The translations under genes were made by a program, and so were the position numbers. A stretch of DNA of 64,000 bases, taken from the NCBI GenBank assembly GCA_013391385.1, contig JACBFI010000012.1, positions 21,557 through 85,556 on the forward strand, written 5' to 3'. The stretch is from Sediminibacterium sp. Gen4 (GTDB taxonomy: Bacteria; Bacteroidota; Bacteroidia; Chitinophagales; Chitinophagaceae). The notes under the pieces are model-generated. The model worked only from the letters and a program-made list of their open reading frames with translations. It had not been told where the DNA came from and searched no databases. Of the stretch, positions 9,834-47,334 are shown piece after piece; within the stretch, counting starts at the first letter, position 1; every line of letters starts with the position of its first letter.

Positions 9834-10673
9834 ATGCAGTCAGTACTATTCAGGGATTTGGGATTCAGGTCTTATCAATCGGTTTGGGATGAGCAGGAAG
9901 CCATGCTTAAAGAGAAGGTGGATATGAAGTCGGCTGCAAGAATGAGGGATCATGTTGGTCAGGCGACCAACACGGGTAATGGAGATCATGTTGGTCAGGC
10001 GACCAACATGGGCAACCAGAAAATGGAGACCGCCATGGTGGGGCACCTAGCCCATCATACAATTGATACAGCTATTGTTGGTCGCCTGACCAACCATACA
10101 ATCCCCCACCATCTTTTATTGGTGGAACACTCGCCGGTATACACCCTCGGTAAGAGTGGGAAAACCGAACATATTTTGATTTCAGAACAGGAAATGCAGG
10201 AGAGAGGCATTGATTATTTTCATATCAATCGCGGTGGCGACATTACTTTTCATGGTCCCGGACAAATCGTAGGTTATCCGATCTTAGACCTGGAACAATT
10301 TAAAACAGATCTTGGGTGGTATTTACGAAGTCTGGAAGAAGTGATGATCCTAACAATGGCACATTATGGCTTAAAAGGAGATAGGAGCAAAGGAGAAACA
10401 GGTGTTTGGCTAGATCCGGATATTCCCGGAAAAGAAAGAAAGATCTGTGCCATGGGTATTAAATGCAGTCGATGGATCACCATGCACGGTTTTGCGTTCA
10501 ATGTAAATACTGATCTCACCTATTTTGATCATATTGTGCCTTGTGGAATTGTAGGTAAGCAAGTGACTTCATTGGAAAAGGAATTAGGATATGCTGTTCC
10601 TTTCGAAGAAGTAAAAACATTGGTGAAAAAGAACTTTGAAAAAGTTTTTGATATTGTATTGATAGATGGCTAA
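9834..10673 (+). CDS. lipB: Octanoyltransferase LipB with an in-frame palindromic-repeat insert
   Basis: LipB moves octanoyl groups from acyl carrier protein to lipoyl domains. Family landmarks are HHLLLVEHSPVYTLGKSGK, GGDITFHGPGQIVGYPILDL, RKICAMGIKCSRWITMHGFAFNVN (catalytic Lys) and FDHIVPCGIVGKQVTSL (catalytic Cys). At 279 residues it is about 50 longer than usual. The extra residues lie between the first helix (YQSVWDEQEAMLKEKV) and the HHLLLVEH strand and read DHVGQATN twice, then MVGHLAHHTI and IVGRLTNHTI. They are encoded by four copies of a palindromic element in two orientations (9948-10105). All catalytic motifs are intact, so the protein is probably active with a surface loop. The end overlaps a convergent gene by 4 bp. 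Confidence 0.93.
   Translation: MQSVLFRDLGFRSYQSVWDEQEAMLKEKVDMKSAARMRDHVGQATNTGNGDHVGQATNMGNQKMETAMVGHLAHHTIDTAIVGRLTNHTIPHHLLLVEHSPVYTLGKSGKTEHILISEQEMQERGIDYFHINRGGDITFHGPGQIVGYPILDLEQFKTDLGWYLRSLEEVMILTMAHYGLKGDRSKGETGVWLDPDIPGKERKICAMGIKCSRWITMHGFAFNVNTDLTYFDHIVPCGIVGKQVTSLEKELGYAVPFEEVKTLVKKNFEKVFDIVLIDG
9948..10105. repeat. Cluster of GTTGGTC-NNNN-GACCAAC palindromic elements inside lipB
   Basis: Copies 1 and 2 are centred on the palindrome GTTGGTCAGGCGACCAAC at 9954-9971 and 9990-10007, a direct repeat with a 36-bp period; copy 2 has a perfect 10-bp stem (9987-9996 with 10001-10010). Copy 3 (10077-10094) is the same palindrome in opposite orientation, GTTGGTCGCCTGACCAAC. A degenerate copy 4, 39 bp before copy 3, matches it at 22 of 29 positions. 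All offsets are multiples of three, so the lipB frame is kept. Related copies occur between genes at 47313-47334 and perhaps 45881-45906. Confidence 0.85.
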
Positions 10674-47312: not shown

Positions 47313-47334
47313 TTGTTGGTCAGGCGATCAACAA
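47313..47334. repeat. Intergenic copy of the GTTGGTC palindromic element
   Basis: TTGTTGGTC and GATCAACAA pair (one G-T) around the loop AGGC. The core GTTGGTCAGGCGATCAAC differs from the lipB copies 1 and 2 by one base. Confidence 0.8.

Follow-up and report, generated by a model that had tools for sequence, protein, structure and literature searches.

The window analyzed here, a stretch of 64,000 nucleotides of contig JACBFI010000012.1 from Sediminibacterium sp. Gen4, contains the gene for lipoyl(octanoyl) transferase (lipB) with several short palindromes inside its reading frame (Table 1). The gene was identified by the NCBIfam models NF010925 and TIGR00214, which scored above their cut-offs (two of the five matching models), by a Pfam LplA-B_cat match, and by fold matches of its product to 2qhs and 1w66. 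The palindrome GTTGGTCAGGCGACCAAC is present twice in direct orientation, 36 bp apart, and once inverted, together with a decayed copy, and all four copies begin at codon phase 0 of the 279-codon frame, so that both the arrangement and the spacing in multiples of three described in the original prediction are confirmed. Copy 2 is a complete unit, with a 10-bp stem (CATGTTGGTC/GACCAACATG), the loop AGGC and a GGC foot, while the GCC foot of copy 4 reads GCT in the window and GCC in the related genome G089. Eight palindrome matches with at most three mismatches were found in the window, compared with a mean of 2.17 and a maximum of 7 in shuffled sequences (0 of 100 reached eight). The lipB palindromes are no chance cluster, and chance may account for several weak matches at other places in the window.

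Table 1. Positions of lipB, of its palindromic repeats (REPs) and of one further family member in the window.
Feature	Position	Strand	Remarks
lipB, lipoyl(octanoyl) transferase, 279 aa, with REP-derived insert	9834..10673	+	ORF, NCBIfam, Pfam, fold
Whole REP-derived insert	9948..10105	+	pLDDT <50 at model residues 47-86
36-bp tandem duplication giving copies 1 and 2	9948..10015	+	32 nt at 94% identity
REP copy 1, VGQATN	9954-9971	+	tandem duplicate of copy 2; GGC foot reads GGT
REP copy 2, VGQATN, complete unit	9987..10013 (core 9990-10007)	+	36 bp downstream of copy 1
REP copy 3, decayed, VGHLAH	10038..10055	-	11/18 to copy 4; 39 bp from copy 4
REP copy 4, inverted, VGRLTN	10071..10094 (core 10077-10094)	-	
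Other family member (L012)	47315..47332	+	between long ORFs, one mismatch

The repeated unit was defined from 120 distinct units collected from all loci gathered, and consists of NNNGTTGGTC-AGGC-GACCAACNNN followed by GGC. Outside the core GGTCAGGCGACC, the arms pair in 94, 89, 81, 79, 90 and 72% of the units at successive positions and then in 16%. When the pairing partner was slid by one position, pairing stayed high only at arm positions 1 and 4 (+1; 84 and 66) and at positions 2 and 5 (-1; 87 and 63) because of TT/AA runs. Compensatory pair types occur at several arm positions, mostly the outermost (GC 50, CG 16, AT 10, TA 10), and GGC (GCC on the other strand) stands directly at the foot in 86 of the 120 units. 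By these pairing and foot counts, what is conserved is a hairpin of 10 bp whose loop is fixed and whose foot stands on one side only, REP-like but with GGC instead of GTAG. The palindrome of the original prediction is thus real, although the 18-nt element proposed there is part of this larger unit; likewise, its statement that no stop codon arises holds for the frames used in lipB, but one of the six frames of the unit has a stop and five are open. The short palindrome, conserved foot and many dispersed copies are those of a REP, and the GGC/GCC foot takes the place of the tetranucleotide foot of the GTAG/CGTC REP super-families. Rfam returned for the lipB insert only a sub-threshold miRNA match over copies 1-2 (21 bits against a cut-off of 70, E 0.15), which we took as a chance hairpin similarity.

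The palindrome is dispersed well beyond lipB. The genome from which the window derives (G000; 3.52 Mb, 59 contigs) has 11 exact GTTGGTCN4GACCAAC sites and none of the reversed control, and 16 places match the AGGC-loop form with at most two mismatches. Eighteen places were inspected, these 16 and two with three mismatches, and only the three in lipB were accepted as coding; the remaining copies in this genome are intergenic, which counts against our main reading. Several candidates for further intragenic copies were set aside: a site with three mismatches in an 882-aa ORF (C46:7631) was put down to chance, one reversed-control site also being present with three mismatches; two sites in long reading frames (C26:20529, C3:4275) lie ahead of the first Met; and overlapping ORFs of 92-99 aa at palindrome copies were taken as spurious. 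Matches with at most two mismatches occur in 26 of the 147 genomes of the genus, our own included. As 8 of the 147 also show a single match to the reversed control, chance may account for the genomes in which one or two sites were counted. Across the family sample, the exact 16-mer is present in 38 of 394 genomes and 17 of 101 genera, with no reversed-control hit among the rows printed. Genome G046, of another family of the order, contains the palindrome GTTGGTCAAAAGACCAAC twice in exact form, at a distance of 388 bp (L017, L018), with the arms of the REP and a different loop. In genome G106, a 129-bp tandem repeat (L175, contig C8, 3961-4236) holds three REPs, one per unit. Besides, nine of the eleven contig starts of G060 and G105 inspected (L162-L172) carry CGAACACCTGTGGTC running into the REP core, which suggests a longer repeat, containing or adjoining REPs, at which these assemblies break off.

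In other genomes of the family, copies flank the gene of a Y1/HuH transposase of the RAYT type. In G105, G135 and G094, palindromes lie on both sides or ahead of a Y1 protein that shows the RAYT motifs NHxH, WQ, YIHxNP and SS, and this protein falls just below the cut-offs of the available models (NCBIfam REP_Tyr_transpos, 72.9 bits against 80; Pfam Y1_Tnp, 22.4 against 23). Among 59 RAYT loci, the REP core GGTC[AG]GGCGACC is found no farther than 400 bp from the gene at 11 of the 13 loci with at least 52.5% identity and at none of the 46 below, a threshold that was picked post hoc with the flank data already inspected; the two close loci with no palindrome nearby are L214 and L221. At the 11 flanked loci, 15 of 19 upstream copies are GCC-first and all 12 downstream copies are GGC-last. 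All 11 genomes of the family sample with a RAYT of at least 53% identity carry the exact 16-mer, as do 38 of 394 overall (hypergeometric 1.6e-12); one of the 11, G421, has 12 REP copies and none beside its RAYT. Likewise, the 26 palindrome carriers of the genus include all four genomes with a RAYT at E <1e-50 (G105, G135, G094, G110; 8e-4), the RAYT of G110 (L185) being unflanked by the palindrome. The palindrome thus appears to be the REP cognate to a RAYT similar to subclass 2.6 of TnpA_REP. Taken together, its dispersal and its link to a RAYT bear out the original view that a mobile-type palindrome resides in the open frame of lipB.

Since the genome of the window yielded no matching RAYT, its REP copies look orphaned, barring a RAYT gene in an assembly gap. 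The two Y1 proteins of this genome are of other types and were rejected as sources. Neither the gene on contig C59 (L050; G000:C59:89901-90239), which is accompanied by its own hairpins (CTCCGGACTAAAGTCCGGAG, CTCCGGGCTTCAGCCCGGAG), nor the one on C57 (L197) has the REP palindrome close by. Elsewhere, two RAYTs with 47-49% identity to the cognate one (L223, L224) adjoin hairpins with GGTC/GACC stems and the loops AGAA and ACAA, which suggests that enzyme and hairpin loop co-evolved.

The placement of the palindrome within a reading frame is not limited to lipB. In a survey of 110 loci with 144 distinct exact copies, our own three included, a spanning ORF was found at 19 of the copies; four of these ORFs were run against Pfam and three had a family. 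The pyrF gene for orotidine 5'-phosphate decarboxylase (L269, G475:C1:65676) contains an in-frame REP read as VVGQATNN and followed by two 21-nt tandem partial repeats (VGQATNNSDEATNNGDEATNNG), an insert located between two aligned blocks of known OMP decarboxylases (query residues 158 and 189-190). In-frame REPs were also detected in the T9SS sorting tails of proteins from two genomes of one genus (L275 in G248, L317 in G324). The pyrF and both T9SS copies are read in the VGQATN frame, like lipB copies 1 and 2. The two T9SS proteins also contain PPSPLKGEF, whose DNA (CCCCCTAAAGGGGGAG in L317) resembles a second palindromic repeat. Within a separate set of 90 copies, 21 ORF rows overlap a copy; four of these are lipB (G078, G089 and twice G094), and in the other 17 the copy lies upstream of the likely start or the ORF is unrecognised.

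The number of copies in lipB differs among relatives. Four copies are present in the window genome, three in G094 (L082), two in G089 (the same protein as that of L083) and one each in G103 and G078, and G063 has none; G122 has a 13/18 sequence that looks like a REP remnant, its LipB is 92% identical, and its single-contig genome contains no match with at most two mismatches. When 110 LipB loci were scanned for GGTCN4GACC with arms of at least six, hairpins were found only in the window's lipB, L082 and L083. The REP is absent from the LipB of G105, G035, G149 and G135; the LipB motif was retrieved in 11 of the 13 genomes requested, G136 and G124 being missed by the search pattern. The comparison proposed along with the original prediction therefore has an answer: since relatives lack the insert or carry other copy numbers at the same site, it is not one insert with a conserved protein sequence common to all close relatives. 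The roughly 50 extra residues first estimated become 41 relative to G122, the closest relative with no intact copy, and 46 relative to G063.

The sequences of these relatives suggest how the copies may have accumulated. G089 has one direct copy (14/18 to the palindrome, at the place of copy 2) and one intact inverted copy, that is, an inverted pair with the feet inward. In G094 copy 2 is intact, and copy 3 (15/18) is also present, 39 bp ahead of copy 4 and in the same orientation. Copies 3 and 4 have CATACAAT in common beyond the unit, which points to copy 3 as a product of tandem duplication. In the window lipB, a tandem duplication of 36 bp has added copy 1 to copy 2; L082 and L083 lack copy 1. 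The four copies are therefore best read, as far as these alignments tell, as one inverted REP pair followed by two local tandem duplications. Of the repeated insertion or local spread originally suggested, the local spread fits, but four separate insertions do so less well than an inverted pair. No target-site duplication and no clean empty site were found in lipB, G122, the nearest relative with no intact copy, having an apparent remnant. The lipB reading frame on contig C118 of G078 (L058/L246) is split within the same loop beside AACAGAGG-type simple repeats, the ATG of the second frame overlapping the stop of the first; this split may be an assembly error, as a run of N is nearby.

Independent insertions at one hotspot in lipB, or re-targeting or conversion of copies there, at least once in each of two clades, are the strongest competing explanation, possible in our judgment yet not the probable one. 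In a FastTree phylogeny of 18 sequences, support was 0.999 and 0.992 for the two clades, 0.985 for the node uniting them, and weak (0.309) for the grouping of G103 with G078. In the sister clade, G103 and G078 have a single inverted copy and G063, of the same clade, has none. Copy 4 has the same core in G000 and G078 (18/18) and nearly the same in G103 (17/18), although G000 and G078 differ at 38 of 58 fourfold sites elsewhere in lipB; the chance of zero change at five fourfold sites is 0.005. This identity would be poorly predicted by shared descent of a neutral insert and favours re-arrival or conversion, but it is subject to ascertainment, as the G078 copy was found through being intact. 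Besides, the adjacent residues IPHH are common to G078 and G000, and the shared flanks in G000, G089 and G094 favour descent with tandem duplication. The two clades may go back to a single REP arrival or to a second one in the sister clade. In a more far-reaching alternative, the REP family would be adapted to genes, the lipB hairpins being kept intact across species through conversion or renewed insertion by the RAYT, and not through selection on the protein, and lipB acting as a long-lived reservoir, which we consider unlikely.

The insert lies between the first helix of LipB and the strand HHLLLVEH, and an AlphaFold model built on a 34-sequence alignment (mean pLDDT 85.6) predicts a LipB-like fold in which the insert forms a low-confidence loop (Table 1). 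The loop was measured in 24 of 110 rows, the others being missed by a strict pattern, and its length is 23-31 residues in the relatives (n = 21). Since some relatives, L084, L117 and L130 among them, have long loops at the same site with no REP, the site tolerates length. As no other LplA/LipB-type protein was found in the window genome, the REP-bearing gene is probably functional, and the insert would be translated as an extra disordered loop.

The hairpins could instead be kept for their effect on the gene, as an operator, a binding site or an mRNA stability element selected to regulate lipB. The strand folding of the insert DNA is indeed strong (z -6.7; 0 of 200 shuffles), and regulatory roles have been proposed for REPs elsewhere, according to the main text of PMC3733652. 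However, the copies decay (11/18 in copy 3, 14/18 in copy 2 of G089, 13/18 in G122) while the lipB frame stays open, and other copies lie at unrelated loci, so that we regard a regulatory origin as quite improbable. That the insert is an ordinary low-complexity protein loop, palindromic in its DNA by accident, is scarcely credible: the variable loop length among relatives and the long REP-free loops agree with it, but the compensated arms, the dispersal in genus and family against the reversed controls, and the RAYT association contradict it.

Considering these findings, we propose, with high confidence, that the palindromes of lipB are the REPs of a subclass-2.6-like RAYT, and that an inverted pair of them entered an ancestral lipB, was expanded by tandem duplication, and was lost or decayed in other lineages, its DNA persisting as in-frame ballast. 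REPINs, or BIMEs, are formed by two REPs in inverted orientation, and the core pair in lipB resembles such a pair, differing in being intragenic and expanded through tandem duplication. The REPs would act as single-strand hairpins, substrates of the HuH/Y1-type RAYT, and a REPIN-like pair with its feet inward would have been placed in the loop before HHLLLVEH in an ancestor. Copy 3 would then have arisen from copy 4 and copy 1 from copy 2, the duplications probably occurring through slippage or a hairpin-associated replication error. Only in-frame, stop-free arrangements would survive in a single-copy lipoylation gene, and the insert DNA would therefore be carried as translated, disordered ballast. 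In other lineages, copies would have been lost or have decayed.

The Rickettsia palindromic element RPE-1 resembles the lipB family in occupying open frames of unrelated proteins, and it is longer (PMC3733652). Intragenic GTAG/CGTC REPs, lying alone, in groups or as dimers, are described for a number of species in the main text of Di Nocera et al. 2013 (PMC3733652). These include RPE-4 and RPE-6 of R. conorii, and their clusters encode 43-82 residues that are thought to be tolerated (PMC3733652, main text). Of the Rickettsia elements invoked as precedent in the original prediction, RPE-4 and RPE-6 are already published as intragenic REPs. Since that paper describes REPs within ORFs, in-frame REPs as a phenomenon are already known from other bacteria. 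The lipB palindromes share with them the small size and the location in ORFs, grouped or as dimers, and differ in their GGC foot. The main text of PMC3733652 makes no mention of lipB, lipoyl or Chitinophaga.

On the enzyme side, the closest likeness is to TnpA_REP subclass 2.6 (RAYT group 5), described in the main text of Quentin et al. 2018 (PMC6006769) as mostly from Bacteroidetes, with no GTAG foot, with atypical, weaker flanking structures and with copies elsewhere in the genome. The features printed there are WQ, SS after the Y motif and a median HuH-Y spacing of 82, with the consensus NH[LIV]H (HuH) and YIH[QN]NP (Y). The RAYT at L171 has WQ, SS, a HuH-Y spacing of 77 and a Bacteroidota host (Chitinophagaceae), and the motifs at L171 (NHMH/YIHCNP), L183 (NHMH/YIHNNP), L184 (NHIH/YIHENP) and L217 (NHIH/YIHNNP) are partly off the printed consensus. 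Similar transposase motifs, a Bacteroidota host, the missing GTAG foot and copies both flanking the gene and dispersed are thus common to both, whereas the firm 10-bp stem and GGC/GCC foot, and the location within lipB, pyrF and T9SS tails, set the present family apart from that main-text description. The earlier statement that no such family had been named for Bacteroidota is accordingly to be narrowed, as the RAYT resembles a subclass already published (PMC6006769, main text). Among the papers listed by literature searches, main texts considered, none reports this repeat from Chitinophagaceae, and neither the REP family nor its host clade nor the lipB copy-number series came up in them.

Overall, these results give a sequence-level description of a REP family and its likely RAYT in Chitinophagaceae. 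They also reveal a natural series of none, a remnant, one, two, three and four copies of a mobile palindrome within one single-copy enzyme gene, which allows the entry, multiplication and exit of REPs from coding sequence, as well as the role of the encoded peptide, to be tested.
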